A stretch of 64,000 nt of DNA from IMG/VR virus record IMGVR_UViG_3300049893_000899, positions 1-64,000 of that record, one strand, 5' to 3'. The DNA is from a virus. The position numbers were made by a program, and so were the translations under genes. This document shows, piece by piece, positions 1 through 18,900 of this stretch. Numbering within the stretch: position 1 is the stretch's first letter; every line of letters starts with the position of its first letter. The notes beneath the pieces were generated by a model. The model had not been told where the DNA came from. It saw only the letters and a program-made list of their open reading frames with translations, and did no database searches.

Positions 1-2309
1 TCCTTCTCTCTCTGTTGAGCTTCACTCGTCTGTCTTGACTTCTCGATAGCTTTATTACCCCATTCAATAACGTCAGGGATATTATTCATATTTCTATCTT
101 TCTCTTCATCAAAACCAGAAGCAACAATAGTAGCTTTAAGAATATCATTCTCTCTATCAAGTTGATTCTCCATAGCCTCAAACTCTCTAGCCTCTCTCTT
201 ATCTTGTAATTGAGCCTGAACAGCTTGATCTCTTGATTCTCTTTCAGCTTGAGCTTGTTGAGCTTGACTCTGTTCAAGTCTAACCTCTCCATTCTCAATA
301 TATTCAATACCTTCAATAAGAGAAGCAGATCTGTATAATTTAGCCAAGTCAGAAAGATTAACCTTACCCTGTTGTAAAGCAGCTTCTGCCAATGCTTCAA
401 TGCGCATTTTATTTCTCTTATCTTTAGAGTAGTTAGAGATAAACACTCCAATATCAGAATCCATTAACATCTCTCCGTCAACAAGTAAAGATTGTACTGT
501 ATTGTCTTTCGACATATAAGTGAATCTTTTCCCTCCAGCAGTAGTAAACTTAGACATCTCAATATAAGCTGTTAATACAGCTTGTTTAATCTCGTCATGT
601 CTAAAGAAGTAATGCTCAGTAATATAGCCTGAATTAATTAAAGCTGTATTAAGACCAGTAGTAGTTTCATATTGAGAAGTGGAGCCAAGTTGTTGTGGGT
701 TCATTCCGCACACTTGGTCCATCAGGAACTCAATCTTAGCCATAATACCAATATACTGTTGTACTACGTTAGCTAAAGACAAGTCTATACTCTGGAACTG
801 ATTAAACCTAGAAACAGAGTTAGGATCTCCATCTCTACCTTCTTCCATTGAGTTAATCCAAGCAATACCAAGGTTATCAAAGTAGTACATCCATTGCTTC
901 ATGTCTATACCGTTTGATTTAGGTATCTGAGCCAAGTCAAACACCATCTTCTTACCTTTTGCTTTAGCTATCTCATTTTCAAGTCTTAACCAGATAGTAT
1001 TATACAACATCTGATACGGAGCAAGTAAATCAACTATACTTGTCGCTTCAGAGTTTAAGTTATTATACAATCCACCAATATAAGGAGACCACACCTCTGT
1101 AGGGCTGTCAATCTTTCTCATTTGGTTTCTACAAGGATTAATGTCAACATAGATGTCAGCGCCAATCTTATGTCCCATCCAATATTCTGGCAACCATTGC
1201 CACTCTAAAGTAGCCCCAATAGCTTTAAGCTCTTCTGTTAGCTTGAATGAATCATCTACGTCTTCCGTCATTGGCATCCCAGATTCAGGATCAACATACG
1301 AAAGATATCCAATCTTCTTCATTGACTTCCACACACAAGTAACAACTCTAATGTTTCCATTGTATCGTTGATTTACATTGTATGTATCTAAATCCTTCAT
1401 TGTAGCCGCATCATACGCGAATCCAGGGTACATGATATTGTTACTCATTGAGTTAACAATCTCCCCATCATCAAGCATCTTCAGTTGAGCTTCAGTAAGG
1501 TATAATCCAAATTCATCTATAACTTCCCCTCTTGACATGAAGCGTTCCTCTCTCTGCCAATCAGATAAGTGAACCCATTCAGTCTCAGGCCCTTTTTCAA
1601 ACTCAAAGTTTAATGGGTTTACAACCCTTAAAGACGTCCTTCCATTTACCGCCCCAACATAATAAACCTCTTCTGAAGCTATTGCGGCATGGCTGAATCC
1701 TTTGTTAAACTTAGCCGGCAATCTATCTGAGTGCATTGCATCTTCAACTATCACTGAAGCGTAATGTTCTCTGATGTCTCTAATTGTTCTGCCGGTGTTC
1801 ATTTGTTTCTTAAGCTCCTTGAAAGAAAGGATTGAATCCATCTTTTGCTCAATCTCTGGATCATTTGGATCAAGCTGAAAAATAGCCATTAACTTCTGCT
1901 GTGTAGTCATTAACAACTCTTGTGTCTGTTGTTCTACCTTAGAGTTAACAACGTGGCCACCAACTCCAACAACATGGTAATCAAACGGTCGCTCTAACTC
2001 TTCCCCAACCAATCTATCAACCCTAATCCTTACTAAGTTATAGTCTCTAAGCTTAGAAGGAGAACCTCCAAACTGTCCGCCAAACTTAAAAGGGTCTGTC
2101 ACATACTTATAATTCTCCTCATTTATTCTGGAGTTCATTAAGTCATAGTTAGCCTGTTTGCTTTGCTTAGATGAACGACCATTCCTCTTCAAAGAGAAAG
2201 CCATACCATCAACAGCATCAACACATTGCTCTCTCCATTTGTCAGTCTTCTTTGACAAAGGAAGCATCTGTTGAGGTAAATACCTCTGGATATTAATGTC
2301 TGTACTCAT
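1..2309 (-). CDS. Portal protein (3' end outside window)
   Basis: The reading frame begins at an ATG directly after the terminase TAA and stays open for about 769 codons to the left edge, so the C-terminus is missing. The product starts MSTDINIQRYLPQQ. The visible C-terminal part is rich in Gln, Glu and Lys, as in the helical barrel of large portals. Known role: the portal dodecamer sits at one capsid vertex, docks the terminase and passes DNA. The assignment rests on position next to TerL, size and overall character; no short diagnostic motif is visible. TerL-then-portal on one strand is the crAss-like arrangement. Confidence 0.8.
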   Translation of the reverse strand, partial: MSTDINIQRYLPQQMLPLSKKTDKWREQCVDAVDGMAFSLKRNGRSSKQSKQANYDLMNSRINEENYKYVTDPFKFGGQFGGSPSKLRDYNLVRIRVDRLVGEELERPFDYHVVGVGGHVVNSKVEQQTQELLMTTQQKLMAIFQLDPNDPEIEQKMDSILSFKELKKQMNTGRTIRDIREHYASVIVEDAMHSDRLPAKFNKGFSHAAIASEEVYYVGAVNGRTSLRVVNPLNFEFEKGPETEWVHLSDWQREERFMSRGEVIDEFGLYLTEAQLKMLDDGEIVNSMSNNIMYPGFAYDAATMKDLDTYNVNQRYNGNIRVVTCVWKSMKKIGYLSYVDPESGMPMTEDVDDSFKLTEELKAIGATLEWQWLPEYWMGHKIGADIYVDINPCRNQMRKIDSPTEVWSPYIGGLYNNLNSEATSIVDLLAPYQMLYNTIWLRLENEIAKAKGKKMVFDLAQIPKSNGIDMKQWMYYFDNLGIAWINSMEEGRDGDPNSVSRFNQFQSIDLSLANVVQQYIGIMAKIEFLMDQVCGMNPQQLGSTSQYETTTGLNTALINSGYITEHYFFRHDEIKQAVLTAYIEMSKFTTAGGKRFTYMSKDNTVQSLLVDGEMLMDSDIGVFISNYSKDKRNKMRIEALAEAALQQGKVNLSDLAKLYRSASLIEGIEYIENGEVRLEQSQAQQAQAERESRDQAVQAQLQDKREAREFEAMENQLDRENDILKATIVASGFDEEKDRNMNNIPDVIEWGNKAIEKSRQTSEAQQREK

Positions 2310-4511
2310 TTATTCAAATAGTTTTTCTTCAAGAAAGAAATCCTTTCTAATCTTTTTACCCGAACCTTCCTCTATCTTTATGTAATGATGTTGGAGTCTA
2401 TTGCATATAAGTAATAAGAACGCTATTACACGGTCAAAGTTACCTGTCTTATTATACGATATCAACTCCTTCAACAAACCAGCAGAGAATATCTTGTTTA
2501 CTCCAAGAACACCAGCTTCATCTTCTTCATTAAGCCAGTCCCTCGCGTAAATCTCAAGCTCCTCCTTAATCTTGTTTGTCATATGTATGCCGTAATCCCT
2601 ATCTACATTACTCTTTTCTGTAGCCTTAAGAAATGTAGGCATTTTTGCTAACAAATGTAACGATTTTTTTTGCTTAAAGTGAAACTTCATTGAATTTTTC
2701 TCATTCTCGTACAGATTGGTAGCGTTATAATAAGCACACAATCTCCTAACATTCTCATGGTGTTCTTCTGCCCTATCAGGTCTTGCAGTGTATTCAGCAA
2801 CAATAAACTCCCTCGCGCTGCCGTGTCTAAAGTCGCCAATCTTATAGATAAAAGTAGATCCTAACGAAACTGAGTTAGGAGCCTTGTCTTGGTCATAGGG
2901 GTCTGTCGCTGCAATATACATACCATAAGGAATCTCTCCAGGTGCCGGGTGTTCCCATATCTGTACTGAACCAGTGGTATCATCTGTAGATTTCATTGGA
3001 AACCCACAAGCTCTTTTCTTGTTATGTAAATCCGGAGACCACTTAACGCCATACGTAGCATTAGGATCCGAAACTAAATCACCTAGTTGTCCATTTACTT
3101 GAGGAATATCGCAGTTTTCTACAAACTTCAACTGATCAATTAAGTCTGCAATAGGGAATATGTTACCTCCGGATATTAAGAAAGCTTCAGAAGGCACAAT
3201 AGGGTTGTTTTGTAGTTCATTATTCAACGGTTCTTTACTTGAACCTGAAGCCAACTTGTCCCTCTTGCTGTCAATATATTTCATTGCCTGTTCCTTCTTA
3301 GTGAACAGGTTATTGTCTTTGAAGTCATTCAAGCCTTTATAGTAAGGCAAGAAGTAACCTATCTTCTTTGCTGAGCCTTCAAAAGCATCAGAAAATCCTA
3401 AACAGTCAAACTGCTCAGGGTTATAGAATATCTCTTTAAGCTGTTCTGTAGCTCCAGAGATCATTTCACCACCGGTACCAAAAACCCATATAACTCCAAA
3501 TTTAGAAGAGGAGTTCATGGTATTCTCTTTCAAGGCACCCATGGCATCAATAAGGTTAGACATAAAACCTGCCTCTTCAATAAAGACTAAGTTGTTACGC
3601 AAACCGTTACCTGCTGTAGCCTTCTCTTGGAATGTTCTATGTGATATCATAGAACCACTACCCTTCACCTTACCAGTCTTCAAGTCTTTAACACTTGCCA
3701 ACATATCCTTACCAGGCATCAATGACCCTGAAGTTTCATGCTGGAAAGGAGCCATATAGTACATATCCCCCTCTTCAAAAGAACCATATAGGTTATTATA
3801 CCCATCAAGGAACTTATCAAGCAAACCCTTGCTATACTTAGCATCAAACGCTCCAACAAGAGAAGAACTTCGTAAAGGCTCCCCTGCTTTTTTAGCATCT
3901 ACATACTGTTCATATCCTTCAGCTCCATCTGTAATAAAGTTATGACATAACAAAGCCGCAGCAAAGAAAGACTTACCAGTACCCCTGGCCTCAAGGTCAA
4001 CAACATTCTTAGCTTCGTTCTTATATAAAGGAATACCACTTAGATTGTGGCTATCCCAAAGATAACTCAACGCGTCTACATACTCCTTAAAAGAACCATC
4101 TTCTTTAAACACTGTAACATCAAGGAAGTGAAACCTATAGTCTTCTTTTATAGCTTCAAAGTCTCCATTATACTCTTCGTTAAGTTCTTTTACAAGCCTA
4201 ACACAGGTCTTTTCTTTATCATCACTGAAGCCAGAAAAGCCTTTAGCTACAAGATAGATATAGGCTTTCTCCCATTCATTATCTCGTAGCCAAGGCCTTC
4301 CTAATATCTCCTGTTTAGAAAACCTATCTTTCTTAACCTTAATCTTGAAGTGGTTAACATAGAAGTAAAGAACCCCAGGGCAATAATACCCTCCAGCCCA
4401 CATACCATCAAAGACTCTTCTCTTCTCGTCCTTCCAGTATATCTTGTACTCCATACTTTTAGGATGAAAGATTGGAGCCTCGTTGAAAGTATATAAACTA
4501 GGATTTCTCAT
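2310..4511 (-). CDS. terL: Terminase large subunit
   Basis: 733 residues. A P-loop EARGTGKS lies at residues 174–181 and a Walker B strand NLVFIEEAGF at about 308–317, whose EE pair would activate ATP hydrolysis. The C-terminal half has IAATDPYDQD, matching the first metal-binding Asp of the RNase H-like nuclease domain of terminases. Known role: ATP-driven DNA packaging and cutting at the portal. The start overlaps the upstream IHF-like gene by 14 bases and the stop abuts the portal ATG, so the three are probably translationally coupled. Length fits crAss-like TerL proteins. Confidence 0.95.
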   Translation of the reverse strand: MRNPSLYTFNEAPIFHPKSMEYKIYWKDEKRRVFDGMWAGGYYCPGVLYFYVNHFKIKVKKDRFSKQEILGRPWLRDNEWEKAYIYLVAKGFSGFSDDKEKTCVRLVKELNEEYNGDFEAIKEDYRFHFLDVTVFKEDGSFKEYVDALSYLWDSHNLSGIPLYKNEAKNVVDLEARGTGKSFFAAALLCHNFITDGAEGYEQYVDAKKAGEPLRSSSLVGAFDAKYSKGLLDKFLDGYNNLYGSFEEGDMYYMAPFQHETSGSLMPGKDMLASVKDLKTGKVKGSGSMISHRTFQEKATAGNGLRNNLVFIEEAGFMSNLIDAMGALKENTMNSSSKFGVIWVFGTGGEMISGATEQLKEIFYNPEQFDCLGFSDAFEGSAKKIGYFLPYYKGLNDFKDNNLFTKKEQAMKYIDSKRDKLASGSSKEPLNNELQNNPIVPSEAFLISGGNIFPIADLIDQLKFVENCDIPQVNGQLGDLVSDPNATYGVKWSPDLHNKKRACGFPMKSTDDTTGSVQIWEHPAPGEIPYGMYIAATDPYDQDKAPNSVSLGSTFIYKIGDFRHGSAREFIVAEYTARPDRAEEHHENVRRLCAYYNATNLYENEKNSMKFHFKQKKSLHLLAKMPTFLKATEKSNVDRDYGIHMTNKIKEELEIYARDWLNEEDEAGVLGVNKIFSAGLLKELISYNKTGNFDRVIAFLLLICNRLQHHYIKIEEGSGKKIRKDFFLEEKLFE

Positions 4512-4836
4512 TCGCTTCTCTCTCTCTTCTTTCTTCTAAACTACCATAACTAAGTCTACATAAAGCAGTGAAGTCCATTTTGTCCCTCTCTTCTTCTGAT
4601 AACTTATAAAACTCAGGTCTAGCGTGCTTAACACGCCTTCTTAATGTCCACACTCCAAGGCCAGGTAATATTATACTCTTAACCTCTGGATCGTCCATCA
4701 TCTTAGTTATCAAGTCAAACTGAGCCATAAACACTAAGTCTATATCCTCCGGCTTTAACTTAGTACCATCAGCACTAACTCCACCAAGTCTCTCAATAAC
4801 TCTCTTATAAATTTTTAATCTTTGCTGTGTTAACAT
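4498..4836 (-). CDS. IHF/HU-like DNA-binding protein
   Basis: 112 residues. The central segment IILPGLGVWTLRRRVKHARP matches the HU/IHF beta-arm region, where a GFG turn is followed by basic residues and an Arg-Pro near the arm tip. Crassvirales encode an IHF-like subunit beside the terminase, so family and position agree. Likely role: bending DNA during packaging or replication. The C-terminus (about 25 residues) is strongly charged. It overlaps the terL start by 14 bases and lies 2 bases after the upstream gene. Confidence 0.65.
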   Translation of the reverse strand: MLTQQRLKIYKRVIERLGGVSADGTKLKPEDIDLVFMAQFDLITKMMDDPEVKSIILPGLGVWTLRRRVKHARPEFYKLSEEERDKMDFTALCRLSYGSLEERREREANEKS

Positions 4837-12520: not shown

Positions 12521-13660
12521 ATGCAAGAAGAACAAGAAAAAAACGAACTGGTTTCGGGAGAAACTGGTCGAATTGAATCAATTAAAGTAACTGTTAATGG
12601 ATCAACAACAATAAACTACGTATTTGGTGCTGACGCAAACGTTGAAGACCTTGTAAAGTCTTTGGGCGGAGGGAACTTATCAGAAGAAAAGAAACAAGAG
12701 TTAATAGAAGAATTAACTCCAGAGCAAGAAGAAGCTCTATATGAACATAGAGATATGTGGTTAGATAAAGTGTTTGGCTACAAGTGTTACAACAACTTCA
12801 ATGAAGAGAGAGCTGTTAAAGCAATCAAGAAAATCTATCAGTATTGTGATGCTGGAGATTGTGATGTTGTAGTAATGGGTTCTCCTATGGGTATTCAGCA
12901 GTATTTAAATACTTTGAACAGAAAGAATGACCCAAATGCTAAAACAAGGTACTTTGACTTCAGTAGTTACGTAAACTATTCAGACTTTGGATGGTTAAGC
13001 TTCTATGAATACTTCTTGAAGCATCTAAACTTAATCCAAGACAAGAGAGAAGAATTAGAGATGATGATTGACGCTGTAGAGTGTTCATTTATGTCTGTTC
13101 AGCTTGAAGGTCTTTGCGTTATTTCCAAATATCCTACGTTTATCGCGAGGAACGAGAATAACGACATGAATAGTGTTGACGGCCCGGCAATCAAGTTTGA
13201 AGATGGGTTTGAGTTATACTATATCAATGGCTTTGAGATTGAGAAAGAGATGTTCGATATGTTGTCGGAGAAGAAAGTAACCTTTGAGATGTTCACTAAA
13301 GAGGAGAACGAAGAGGTTAAGAGTGCTATCTTATCATTTTATCAACAGAAGTTTGGTGATGAATACTTATTCTTGTTCTTGTCTGATAACATGAAAGAGG
13401 TTGATACCTATGTAGACAAGAAAGACCCTAAGTATTTAGTTGGAACTACTGGAGGTATGAACATCGGGGTGTATACGTTGTTTAAAGGAATTGTAAATGG
13501 TTTCAATGTAGCTTATGTAAGATGTTACTGTCCAAGTACGGATAGAATGTTCTTCTTAGGTGTTGAACCTGATACAAGAAACGCTAAGGACGGTATTGCT
13601 TCTTTGTATCGAATACCTAGGATGTTGGAGAATCATATTGAAGCTATACACAGACAGGGT
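12521..13660 (+). CDS. DUF6745-like protein, exon 1
   Basis: Residues 1–380 of a 422-residue protein completed by exon 2 at 14,432–14,560. The segment SVDGPAIKFEDGFELYYINGFEIEKEMF matches the DUF6745 pattern (GPA...DG...Y..nG). The N-terminal 60 residues are separate, acidic and beta-rich. Unspliced, the frame runs only 8 codons into the intron before a TAG and would lose the conserved C-terminus. Joining GGT at 13,658–13,660 to GAA at 14,432 gives HRQGEVYSTTLTPEGE in frame. Function of DUF6745 is unknown. Confidence 0.75.
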
Positions 13661-14431
13661 AAGAATCTTTGCCCATTCACATAGAAATATATGAAATAAA
13701 ATCGAGGAAAATCGGTGAAAGCCTTCAATAAAATTATTATATTTATTATATGGAAGAAATATTCAAAGATTTAAAAGATTACTCAAGATATGAGTTTTCG
13801 AATTTAGGAAGAATCAGAAATAAGAAATCTGGCAAATTCCTAACTAATACAGTTGTTACAAAAGGCTATTTAAGTGTTAATATTTATAGAGATTCATTGG
13901 GAAGATCTATAACAGTAAAAACACATAGATTAATAGCTGAATGTTTTATCGGCAAAAAAGAAGGGTTAGTAATAGATCATATAGACAACGACAAAACAAA
14001 CAACAGATTAGAAAATCTTGAGTATGTATCAAATAGATTTAATGTTTTAAAGCAAAAAATATATTCAGCAAAAGGATTTCCTAGATTTGATTTAAAATCA
14101 AAAAAATTCATTATTGAATATAGAAAAGATAATTCAAAATTTAAGTTTACATCTTTTAATAGAGAGGAATGTTTAAATTATTATCTTGAAAATGTTAAAG
14201 AAACAGATTCATCTATAATTAAATTAATAAGTATATGTCTGGCTAATACCGAGGTAACTAAATGTATTGCGAAAGGACATTTAGCACCGTAGAGCATAGT
14301 GGATGAATAAATATAATTCCACCAAGAGTCCTTGACACCTTAACTATTATAGAAGGTGAAAATGTATGCCGAACTTATAAGATGATAAATTATAAGAATT
14401 GCAGGATAAAAAGCCAGCAAGATAACAAATG
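13661..14431 (+). mobile_element. Group I intron with HNH homing endonuclease
   Basis: 771 bases. The upstream exon ends GGGT and the intron contains GCCC at 13,671–13,674, giving a P1 helix with U·G at the 5' splice site; AAG/CUU extends it. The intron ends in G (14,431), as group I introns must. Downstream of the HNH gene, TAGAGCATAGTGG and CCAAGAGTCC could form part of the P7 core, though I did not build a full fold. A coding frame interrupted exactly here and restored on removal is the main evidence. Confidence 0.75.
13750..14292 (+). CDS. HNH homing endonuclease (NUMOD4-HNH)
   Basis: 180 residues. The NUMOD4-like N-terminus (YEFSNLGRIRNKKSGKFL...GYLSVNIY) is followed by an HNH_3 core: THRLIAECFI, then VIDHIDNDKTNNRLENLEYVS, with the conserved His, Asp and paired Asn. 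About 80 further residues may read the target DNA. Known role: cutting intronless alleles so that repair copies the intron. It lies wholly inside the group I intron, and its 3' end probably overlaps core intron sequence. Confidence 0.85.
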   Translation: MEEIFKDLKDYSRYEFSNLGRIRNKKSGKFLTNTVVTKGYLSVNIYRDSLGRSITVKTHRLIAECFIGKKEGLVIDHIDNDKTNNRLENLEYVSNRFNVLKQKIYSAKGFPRFDLKSKKFIIEYRKDNSKFKFTSFNREECLNYYLENVKETDSSIIKLISICLANTEVTKCIAKGHLAP

Positions 14432-14560
14432 GAAGTTTACTCAACAACATTAACTCCAGAAGGAGAAGCTATCAACAAGTCTTTAACAAAAGAAGAAATA
14501 GCAGACCAAGTATCTATCAGTGGAGATAGATATTTTGATTTAATCAAGTATGAATATTAA
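14432..14560 (+). CDS. DUF6745-like protein, exon 2
   Basis: The last 42 residues: EVYSTTLTPEGEAINKSLTK to DRYFDLIKYEY and TAA. The ATG at 14,429–14,431 could start a separate 43-residue product, but its last base is the intron's terminal G and the frame continues exon 1 exactly, so it is better read as the 3' exon. Translation of the free frame in unspliced RNA cannot be excluded. Confidence 0.75.
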   Translation, partial: EVYSTTLTPEGEAINKSLTKEEIADQVSISGDRYFDLIKYEY

Positions 14561-14856: not shown

Positions 14857-14880
14857 AACCACTTGGTTAAGTGGTTTTTT
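14857..14880 (+). terminator. Rho-independent terminator
   Basis: AACCACTT-GGTT-AAGTGGTT followed by a T run. Confidence 0.8.
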
Positions 14881-14966
14881 GTTCTTTAAACCAAAGTAGA
14901 GGAAATAGTTTAGACTCGTGCCTTGTAATGGGGTAAGTTGTCGGTGAAAGTCCGACCTTTGTTATT

Positions 14967-15038
14967 GGTCATGTGGTCGATAATGGCAATGGCGATTACG
15001 GAAGTAATAGAATACAGGTTCGAATCCTGTCCTGACCA
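14967..15038 (+). ncRNA. tRNA-like RNA with tetraloop instead of anticodon loop
   Basis: 72 bases fold as a tRNA. The acceptor GGTCATG/CCTGACC pairs at 6 of 7 positions. The D stem GTCG/TGGC has a 10-base loop containing GG. The T stem ACAGG/CCTGT is perfect with the canonical loop TTCGAAT. U8, A14, G18-G19, A21 and Y48 are in place. The middle arm ATTAC/GTAAT is a perfect 5-bp stem, but its loop is GGAA, a GNRA tetraloop, so there is no anticodon. CCA is not encoded. It could be a mimic of tRNA for a processing or binding protein, or a decayed tRNA. Confidence 0.55.
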
Positions 15039-15045
15039 CAAAAAT

Positions 15046-15135
15046 AAACTAACTAAAGTAAAAAGCTCGGTACCGACTATTTCAAAGGTATCAAGTATAT
15101 TAGAAGGCAGGTGAAGCCCTGAATGGTTAGTTTTT
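15046..15135 (+). ncRNA. Multi-helix domain after tRNA-like RNA
   Basis: Closed by an 8-bp stem AAACTAAC/GTTAGTTT and followed by T residues. Inner helices include the palindrome CGGTACCG and CAGG/CCTG. A comparable domain follows the second tRNA-like RNA at 15,732. Confidence 0.4.
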
Positions 15136-15230
15136 ATATGGTTAAACGAGACGTAGCGTTGAGCGTTGATACATGAATTAACCAAGTGACTATTAGTTCA
15201 TCTTTCAGTTGAAAGAAGGAAATAAAGAAT

Positions 15231-15260
15231 CGCATAGGTTAAGTTCTATGCGTTTTTTTT
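15231..15260 (+). terminator. Rho-independent terminator
   Basis: CGCATAG, 8-base loop, CTATGCG, then T8. Confidence 0.85.
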
Positions 15261-15396
15261 GATAAGACTGTAATTATTATAGCCTTGTTTAGTTGCAAAT
15301 GAATAAGGATCGAAGTAGTACAGTATGAGATAGCGACTGTTGTAATCGTTGGTACACTAATAATACAGAATTAGACTATATTTACCAAAATCTGTA
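15261..15396. other. Short non-coding stretch
   Basis: 136 bases between two terminators with no credible gene. Short inverted pairs (for example around AGTACAGTATG and CGACTGTTG) suggest another small RNA, with TATATTTAC as a possible promoter element. Nothing firm. Confidence 0.3.
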
Positions 15397-15447: not shown

Positions 15448-15642
15448 ATGAGAATATTATATTTCATCTTAATAGTAGTTTATGTAGCATCTACTACTAT
15501 AATTATAATAACAAGCAACAATGATGCTTTTGCATTAAAAGAATACTTCAGAGAAAACAAATATTGGTTGATTGTATATACATTATATTCAGCTACATTA
15601 ATAGTTTTAAACTCTTGGTTTATTGGTAAAATCTTAAAGTAG
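15448..15642 (+). CDS. Two-helix membrane protein
   Basis: 64 residues. Hydrophobic helices at about 3–23 (LYFILIVVYVASTTIIIIT) and 40–61 (LIVYTLYSATLIVLNSWFIG) are separated by a polar loop. The TAG stop lies in the first bases of the tRNA-like RNA that follows. Function unknown. Confidence 0.6.
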   Translation: MRILYFILIVVYVASTTIIIITSNNDAFALKEYFRENKYWLIVYTLYSATLIVLNSWFIGKILK

Positions 15643-15729
15643 ATAGTGATGTAAGTGGGAATAAATACCACCTTGGGTAACACGCTGAATTTAGTTCGGT
15701 TAATAGGGGTTCGATTCCCTTCTTTCTAC
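15640..15729 (+). tRNA. Divergent tRNA-like gene, anticodon UUA
   Basis: 90 bases. The acceptor TAGATAG/CTTTCTA pairs at 6 of 7; U8, A14 and A21 are present; the D stem is TGT/ACA. The D loop carries an inserted hairpin GTGG...CCAC (15,655–15,671) before a GGG. The anticodon arm GCTGA-ATTTAGT-TCGGT has U33 and anticodon UUA, which would read UAA stop codons. The T arm AGGGG-TTCGATT-CCCTT is canonical. CCA is not encoded. Because TAA ends most genes here, a working ochre suppressor would be costly; it may be decayed or have another role. Confidence 0.4.
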
Positions 15730-15731
15730 TT

Positions 15732-15805
15732 AACCCTGTTAGCAGTTCCGGGAAGTGCGGATGAAAATAGTAGTATGTTGGTTAAACTCCAACAAACAGG
15801 GTTTT
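15732..15805 (+). ncRNA. Three-way-junction RNA domain
   Basis: Closed by a perfect 9-bp stem AACCCTGTT/AACAGGGTT with short T run, enclosing hairpins TCCG...CGGA and GTTGG...CCAAC. It directly follows the tRNA-like RNA and ends 13 bases before the next gene, so it could also act as a leader. Confidence 0.45.
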
Positions 15806-15818
15806 AAATTTAAAAACA

Positions 15819-16013
15819 ATGTTCATTAGAAGAAAACTTGGAGGCAAGCTAATTGATAGTTTTACTGAAGCTGAAAACAGTGCTAACATAGATTATGTTT
15901 TACTTAACAAAATTAAGAATGAAACATTAATGACGAATGGATTTTATTCAATTGGAAGAAGAATTGGCTGGTCAATAAAAAAGTTGATAATAACAAAAAA
16001 GAAAGAACTATGA
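15819..16013 (+). CDS. Small basic hypothetical protein
   Basis: 64 residues beginning MFIRRKLGGKLIDSFTEAEN, basic and helical with a Lys-rich end. Its stop overlaps the start of the repeat protein (ATGA). No family recognised. Confidence 0.5.
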   Translation: MFIRRKLGGKLIDSFTEAENSANIDYVLLNKIKNETLMTNGFYSIGRRIGWSIKKLIITKKKEL

Positions 16014-16285
16014 ATTTAGGCAAAAAATTTAATCAAGTAAGGGATCAAGTATGGACTCAAGTAGGGAATCAAGTAGTGAATCAAGTAAGGGGTCAAGTAG
16101 GGAATCAAGTAGTGAATCAAGTAAGGGGTCAAGTAGAGAATCAAGTAATGAATCAAGTAAGGGGTCAAGTAGTGAATCAAGTATGGACTCAAGTAAGGAA
16201 TCAAGTAGTGAATCAAGTAGGGTTTCAAGTAGGGAGTCAAATATTATCAGCAATTCAAAAAAACAATGAAAATGACATATTTTAA
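16010..16285 (+). CDS. Tetrapeptide-repeat protein 1
   Basis: 91 residues. From about residue 8 to 75 it consists of 18 tandem units of the form x-Q-V-x (NQVRDQVWTQVGNQVVNQV...), one unit per 12 bases. Gln-Val is nearly always CAAGTA; the two variable positions take Arg, Trp, Gly, Val, Glu, Met, Asn, Asp or Thr. The C-terminus is a non-repetitive 15 residues. A second gene of this type is at 18,589. The regular spacing suggests a fibrous or beta-solenoid-like surface, but the fold is not known to me. Confidence 0.7.
   Translation: MNLGKKFNQVRDQVWTQVGNQVVNQVRGQVGNQVVNQVRGQVENQVMNQVRGQVVNQVWTQVRNQVVNQVGFQVGSQILSAIQKNNENDIF
16031..16242 (+). repeat. 12-bp tandem repeat array 1
   Basis: About 17–18 units of consensus NNNTCAAGTANG inside the repeat-protein gene. 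The core TCAAGTA is almost invariant and the flanks vary. Because 12 is a multiple of 3, several frames stay open on both strands; only the Q-V frame has gene-like ends. Confidence 0.85.
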
Positions 16286-18588: not shown

Positions 18589-18900
18589 ATGAAAGCCTTT
18601 GATAAAGTAAAGAACCAAGTAAGGGTTCAAGTAAGGGATCAAGTATGGGATCAAGTAGGGGTTCAAGTATGGGATCAAGTAGTGAATCAAGTAGGGAATC
18701 AAGTAAGGGTTCAAGTAAGTGATCAAGTAAGGGTTCAAGTAAGGGATCAAGTATGGGATCAAGTAGAGAATCAAGTATGGTTTCAAGTAAGGGTTCAAGT
18801 AAGGGATCAAGTAAGGGATCAAGTAGGGGTTCAAGTAAGGGATCAAGTAGGGGATCAAGTAGAGAACAAAGTGAAAAGAACGTTAGCTCCTTATAATTAG
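18589..18900 (+). CDS. Tetrapeptide-repeat protein 2
   Basis: 103 residues. After MKAFDKVK it has about 21 units of x-Q-V-x (NQVRVQVRDQVWDQVGVQVW...) and ends VKRTLAPYN. It is the same design as the protein at 16,010 with different variable residues (more Asp, Arg, Val and Trp). Two copies 2.5 kb apart with different lengths suggest expansion and contraction of the repeat. Confidence 0.7.
   Translation: MKAFDKVKNQVRVQVRDQVWDQVGVQVWDQVVNQVGNQVRVQVSDQVRVQVRDQVWDQVENQVWFQVRVQVRDQVRDQVGVQVRDQVGDQVENKVKRTLAPYN
18609..18872 (+). repeat. 12-bp tandem repeat array 2
   Basis: About 21–22 units of the same NNNTCAAGTANG type as array 1, inside the second repeat-protein gene. The shared core could allow recombination between the arrays, which would delete the 2.5 kb between them. 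Confidence 0.85.

Follow-up and report, generated by a model that had tools for sequence, protein, structure and literature searches.

In tmRNA (SsrA, RF00023), an anticodon-less tRNA-like body is joined to another RNA domain, and a G3-U70 pair marks the molecule for alanine. Canonical phage tRNAs (RF00005) are sited among phage genes and combine the acceptor, D and T arms with U8, A14, G18G19, the T-loop, A73 and C74. Phage tRNAs known to evade tRNA-cutting defences (PMC10264068, PMC11555353) are isoacceptors that take part in translation and have altered loops. In engineered tRNA scaffolds (PMC3753655), a foreign RNA occupies the site of the anticodon arm, and the tRNA body serves to stabilise and process it. 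Two small RNAs of phage T4, RNAC and RNAD, are transcribed from the phage tRNA region and have a role that is unknown (PMC3014915).

The window considered here is a stretch of 64,000 nucleotides of a viral genome (positions 1 to 64,000 of IMG/VR record IMGVR_UViG_3300049893_000899), which encodes at 14967-15038, on the plus strand, an RNA with the body of a tRNA and no anticodon. All the features of canonical phage tRNAs listed above are present in this element, but a 5-bp stem with a GGAA loop stands at the anticodon position, and in its relatives unrelated inserts do so. It shares with tmRNA an anticodon-less body joined to another RNA domain, and differs from it in having U3-A70 in place of G3-U70, no tag reading frame or tag-encoding domain in its 72 nt, a D arm with a stem and, within its family, many unrelated inserts (payloads); the Rfam scan returned no tmRNA match in the window. 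The nuclease-evading phage tRNAs are likewise tRNA-shaped, with alterations in the anticodon loop or close to it, but the window RNA, unlike them, cannot translate. Engineered scaffolds use the same insertion site, whereas the RNAs described here are natural, phage-encoded, arrayed and diverse in their inserts, and have the D loop as a further insertion site. T4 RNAC and RNAD can be likened to them, by their description, as small phage RNAs from a tRNA region; for these two RNAs we know of nothing that points to a common tRNA body (chassis) with swapped inserts. No description of such a family was found in open-access full texts, which were the scope of the search, and the family is apparently undescribed.

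The tRNA-bodied RNA of the window and its surroundings

The virus record that holds the window is 95,355 bp long, and its ends (1-4835 and 90521-95355) overlap over 4,835 bp with one mismatch; with such a terminal repeat, the genome of about 90.5 kb is complete. The phage is crAss-like, as its terminase matches a crAss-type family and shares 33% identity with the terminase of Cellulophaga phage phi14:2, and its host group would be the Bacteroidota, judging from its relatives (Flavobacterium phages and crAss-like phages). Since the genome is complete and the whole record contains no tRNA gene over the Rfam cut-off besides 14967-15038, codon supply is excluded as a role of the element.

ARAGORN reported at 14967-15039 a "tRNA-???" with an "anticodon" of two bases. 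The Rfam tRNA model RF00005 matched 14967-15038 (+) from end to end, apart from a gap where the anticodon loop would be, at 37.4 bits (gathering cut-off 29 bits; E 2.9e-4 for the window searched with 4227 families, and E 1.0e-7 for the genome searched with the tRNA model). Both results, together with the homologs described below, agree with an earlier sequence-only reading of the locus, which had proposed a tRNA body with GGAA in place of the anticodon loop. Read base by base, the 5' acceptor strand GGUCAUG (14967-14973) is followed by U8 and G9 and pairs with CCUGACC at 15031-15037, and the D arm GUCG-AUAAUGGCAA-UGGC (14976-14993) holds A14, G18 G19 and A21 in its loop. G26 precedes the hairpin AUUAC-GGAA-GUAAU (14995-15008), which replaces the anticodon arm with a perfect 5-bp stem and its GGAA cap, leaving no 7-nt loop and no readable triplet. 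The variable region AGAAU, the T arm ACAGG-UUCGAAU-CCUGU (15014-15030) and the 3' acceptor strand with discriminator A73 and an encoded C74 (15031-15039) complete the molecule, in which CCA is not encoded, like in the ordinary tRNAs of related phages. Its acceptor, D and T arms and elbow bases are thus those of a canonical cloverleaf. Small corrections to the fold as first read concern the acceptor pair 6-67, a U.C mismatch in the window copy (G-C in both relatives), two G-U pairs in the D stem and a U-U at 15-48; its arms and invariant bases stand. The anticodon arm being a short closed hairpin, the element cannot decode, and the phage offers a clean case, in which the sole tRNA-like gene over the cut-off is a non-decoding one.

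The acceptor/T-arm score was 37.5 in the window, against 33.0 for the best of 10 shuffled windows. Folding of the single sequence was ambiguous, the cloverleaf lying 0.1-2.5 kcal/mol above the minimum free energy, and was rejected as support for the cloverleaf, being no better than with shuffles; the support for the fold is therefore comparative.

The element is located, together with two other RNAs on the plus strand, between two terminator-like hairpins. The first of these (14857-14884, +; arms AACCACTT/AAGTGGTT, with a T-rich tail) ends the upstream gene just 5' of the RNA array, and was also reported on the minus strand by the hairpin search; the second, CGCATAG...CTATGCG-TTTTTTTT (15231-15262, +), closes the array. 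RNA0 (14890-14964), a tRNA-like RNA with a UGAAAGU T-loop, ends 2 nt upstream of the element, scores 23.9 bits in the Rfam tRNA model, under the cut-off, and returned no homologs. RNA2 (15046-15136) is a structured RNA with a 10-bp closing stem and a UGAAGC-capped hairpin, a homolog of which adjoins RNAs of the family described below in contig L300, with a closing stem that is altered yet paired. Further downstream on the same strand are a tentative tRNA-shaped candidate with a UUCGAUU T-loop (15640-15729, 13.8 bits) and a second candidate (15735-15801, folding z -2.7) with acceptor, D and T arms and no space for an anticodon arm.

Two other features of this part of the window were recorded. 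An HNH endonuclease ORF (13750-14292) directly follows the ORF at 12521-13684, and bases 14291-14429 are 73% similar to contig L033, which suggests that the region 13684-14450 may be a homing element or an intron; no group I intron match was obtained in the region at E < 1. Short tandem repeats at 16010-16285 and 18598-18872 are about 80% alike, the former encoding NQVxxQV repeats (91 aa).

Conservation of the GGAA hairpin

Two further phage species carrying the element were found in IMG/VR, at L001 5302-5373 and L022 9551-9622 (the near-identical contig L009 was considered the same as L022), and no DNA similarity between the window and either of them was detected in the flanks beyond the element. 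Positions 7-48 are identical across the three copies bar one base of the D loop, the tetraloop arm being invariant, and eight of the nine variable columns fall in the acceptor and T stems, which make up 24 of the 73 columns (Fisher p = 4e-4). Three compensatory double changes were observed across the copies, one in the acceptor, where pair 1-72 covaries between G-C and A-U, and two in the T stem. A conserved tetraloop in relatives and covariation in the arms, both anticipated by the sequence-only reading, were thereby confirmed, and the normal 7-base loop that it had named as contrary evidence was found in no relative having the D arm of the window. The selected part would thus be the middle of the molecule, the ends needing only to pair. 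As only three independent copies carry the GGAA payload, its invariance could partly reflect recent transfer.

A decayed tRNA gene or a chance fold was weighed against these data. In its favour, some genes must decay in the tRNA arrays of Bacteroidota phages, and one acceptor pair of the window copy is mismatched; nevertheless, the element is present in three phage species with non-homologous flanks, its payload is invariant, and some 200 relatives have an intact chassis, so that the comparative data already contradict this explanation, which we consider extremely improbable. The unconstrained decay of a tRNA pseudogene is not what the copies display: the D arm and the tetraloop arm are near-identical while the stems differ by compensatory double changes, and the first reading was right to set random decay aside.

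Searches outside IMG/VR returned no full-length match, either for the window region among annotated phages or for one chassis element among plasmids, and two exact-pattern matches in bacterial genomes, both in coding DNA, were judged to be chance. No antisense target of the GGAA payload was found in the phage's own genome, where the longest match was only 12 nt. Among 50 terminase-related crAss-like records, many of them short, the R1 search detected no strong copy of the window payload, and its best matches (38-42 bits) all came from one record. Confinement of the element to three genomes holds for the GGAA payload and was rejected for the chassis.

A common chassis with swapped inserts

The family was reached through relatives of the L022 phage, which gave model matches other than ordinary tRNAs. 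IMG/VR was scanned with the 3' half of the element (T arm and 3' acceptor strand), a pattern blind to the anticodon, and at least 120 stretches were retrieved; among the loci listed, a perfectly pairing 7-nt 5' acceptor strand was present upstream in 112 of the 120 T-arm matches. Relaxed matching led to 207 unique elements of 54-191 nt at 133 loci; the family is at least this large, and its count is tied to the choice of seed pattern. A typical member reads AGTCAGG-TGGCGGAAT(T)GGTAGACGC-insert-TACAGGTTCGAATCCTGTCCTGACTA-C, the shared chassis comprising an AGUCAGG acceptor, often a tRNA-Leu-type D arm, a UUCGA T arm and A73-C74; conservation of the acceptor and T arm is partly imposed by the search patterns, which do not impose the D-arm consensus or C74. 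About 97% of the elements lack an anticodon arm or have unrelated inserts in its place, and a canonical-looking 7-nt anticodon loop occurs in at most 6 of the 207, two of these being clear tRNA-Lys(UUU).

The window element has the T arm and acceptor type of the family, (A/G)GUCAGG...ACAGGUUCGAAUCCUGUCCUGAC(U/C)A, many members match it at 93-100% over its last 26-31 nt, and its anticodon arm is swapped for another structure, as in the family at large. Its D arm UGGUCGAUAAUGG differs from the family consensus UGGCGGAAUUGG, and its 6-67 pair departs too. In place of the Leu-type D arm UGGCGGAAU(U)GGUAGACGC the window has UGGUCGAUAAUGGCAAUGGC; the strict Leu-type motif, found in 52 of the 207 members, is common rather than defining. 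The element is the smallest, minimal member of a large chassis family in Bacteroidota phages. This family was missed by the sequence-only reading, and its anticodon-side structures are mostly not tetraloops.

Such elements are missed or mislabelled by tRNA finders (for most of them ARAGORN gave no call or a false anticodon), and Rfam has no family for the inserts. The single GenBank example found, a model match at 523-631 of MW202828.1, lies in an unannotated gap. The annotated Flavobacterium phages immuto and elemo had no R1 match, and the R1 matches of 73-85 nt in Maribacter phage Panino may be ordinary tRNAs.

The inserts are highly diverse, 184 of them forming 154 similarity clusters, and between copies of the same locus the identity was 0.88 for the chassis and 0.42 for the inserts (0.41 when shuffled). 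Several short members have 4-nt caps at the anticodon position, such as UCAU, UUGG and AUAA, or GAAA in L264 and L351. In six members (L257, L292, L296, L309, L317 and L364) the D loop too carries an insertion, placed between GGCGGAA and GGTAGACGC. Where they recur, the inserts are structured and conserved: family A3 (five copies) has three compensatory pairs, two of them in the insert and the third in the T stem, the pair L233/L305 has two within the insert, and alignments A4 and A6, read by eye, have changes in one strand of apparent helices that are matched in the other. Long inserts fold slightly better than shuffled sequences (mean z -0.6, p < 1e-9). Pseudoknots, which visual inspection had suggested, were rejected as a general feature of the inserts (mean score 16.2, versus 16.3 for shuffled sequences), the score reaching p <= 0.05 in 17% of them. 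The A3 inserts (L234, L242, L276, L315, L350) hold CACCTCCCC, with CACCTTCC in two members, a motif that resembles the anti-Shine-Dalgarno terminus of 16S rRNA.

The D and T arms of many relatives are 30-130 nt apart, a spacing that would also be expected of a tRNA with an intron or an expanded anticodon loop, later spliced to a normal tRNA. In the window element, however, there is nothing to remove, and a closing helix of at least 5 bp is not enriched in long members (0.63, versus 0.61 when shuffled); on these two grounds an intron-containing tRNA was rejected. Nor was a group I intron reported inside the AGTCAGG-chassis elements of the 14 loci scanned, and we give splicing hardly any credence.

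Proposed processing, partners and alternative roles

Base 74 is a C in 205 of the 207 chassis elements and, among the ordinary tRNAs that the same phages carry, in 308 of 316; just 6 have an encoded CCA. The chassis elements thus share the 3'-end habit of real tRNAs, with an end that would be competent for CCA addition. Among the canonical tRNAs of these loci, the Leu-type D arm was observed in 7 of 39 tRNA-Leu and in 0 of 285 others. LeuRS belongs to the small group of synthetases that can do without the anticodon, which makes charging of a Leu-type body conceivable; the D arm of the window copy is of another kind.

We think it fairly probable that the window element is a tRNA-processed non-coding RNA in which the hairpin on the anticodon side is the working part, and we infer its expression, processing, partner and effect as follows. 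It would be transcribed together with the neighbouring structured RNAs, between the two terminators, and its ends would very probably be made by the tRNA-maturation enzymes of the host (RNase P, 3' trimming, CCA addition), since the parts that these enzymes read, namely the acceptor stem, the T arm and the elbow formed by the D and T loops, have been kept. The payload hairpin would be under sequence selection, the stems of the chassis drifting by compensatory changes. RNA helices and proteins are the usual docking sites of GNRA loops, and the payload most likely contacts a partner of the host or of the phage. The tRNA body would stabilise the RNA, define its ends and perhaps make tRNA-binding proteins accessible to it; within the family, one chassis would carry many different payloads.

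The elements might alternatively serve as processing punctuation, i.e. as sites for RNase P and 3' nucleases in polycistronic transcripts, the anticodon side being irrelevant. They are intergenic (just one lies inside an ORF of at least 100 aa), flanking genes are co-oriented with them in a ratio of 174:10, and their 3'-end signature resembles that of real tRNAs. The payload is nevertheless conserved in sequence and structure, with covariation, and the window element, flanked as it is by two terminator-like hairpins, is not internal to an operon, which makes punctuation improbable.

A decoy or competitive inhibitor of host factors acting on tRNAs, which would protect real tRNAs, was also considered; the sequence-only reading had suggested such a role, with EF-Tu, aminoacyl-tRNA synthetases, RNase P or tRNA-cleaving defence nucleases as possible targets. 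The anticodon nucleases PrrC, PARIS, VapC and Cas13a are its proposed targets, which would bind and find no loop to cut; enzymes reading the acceptor and T arm, such as Cas12a3, a cutter of CCA tails, are alternative ones. Decoy action against tRNA-targeting defences is plausible as a model: the element retains all recognition parts of the acceptor, T arm and elbow and lacks the usual cleavage site, nuclease evasion by phage tRNAs has the precedents cited above, and 80 of the 207 chassis elements are located within 1 kb of an ARAGORN tRNA. The phage of the window, however, encodes no further tRNAs that a decoy could protect, and a simple decoy does not need unrelated inserts among the copies of one genome, so that a pure decoy of anticodon nucleases is insufficient alone to explain these copies, and we consider the decoy role as rather unlikely.

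Returning to the hairpin as the working part, the diversity of payloads inside genomes favours many partners rather than one. We tentatively propose, with somewhat less than even confidence, that Bacteroidota phages may use the tRNA body as an interchangeable scaffold for the display and processing of diverse small effector RNAs, produced in arrays, each payload having a different host target (e.g. in RNA-based counter-defence) and the GGAA hairpin being the smallest payload. If true, this would define a natural class of RNAs, hyper-diverse and widespread in phages, in which a tRNA chassis bears interchangeable non-decoding domains. It would supply ready candidates for RNA-based counter-defence molecules, and it bears on the old question of the purpose of phage tRNA regions.

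Other RNAs were noted in the course of these searches. The Rfam scan of 14 loci returned only tRNA, tmRNA and one group I intron located outside the AGTCAGG-chassis elements (L209 4989-5176, 61.3 bits, in a tRNA region that also holds chassis RNAs). The tmRNA matches, missed by ARAGORN, are in contigs that also carry chassis RNAs (L300 5938-6409, minus strand, 71.3 bits; L317 5724-6218, plus strand, 68.5 bits; cut-off 47). Long tRNA-shaped oddities with other acceptor stems were recorded at L212 374-480 and 1932-2039, L215 533-646, L221 671-854 and L222 588-754, and the phenomenon thus extends beyond the AGTCAGG chassis.
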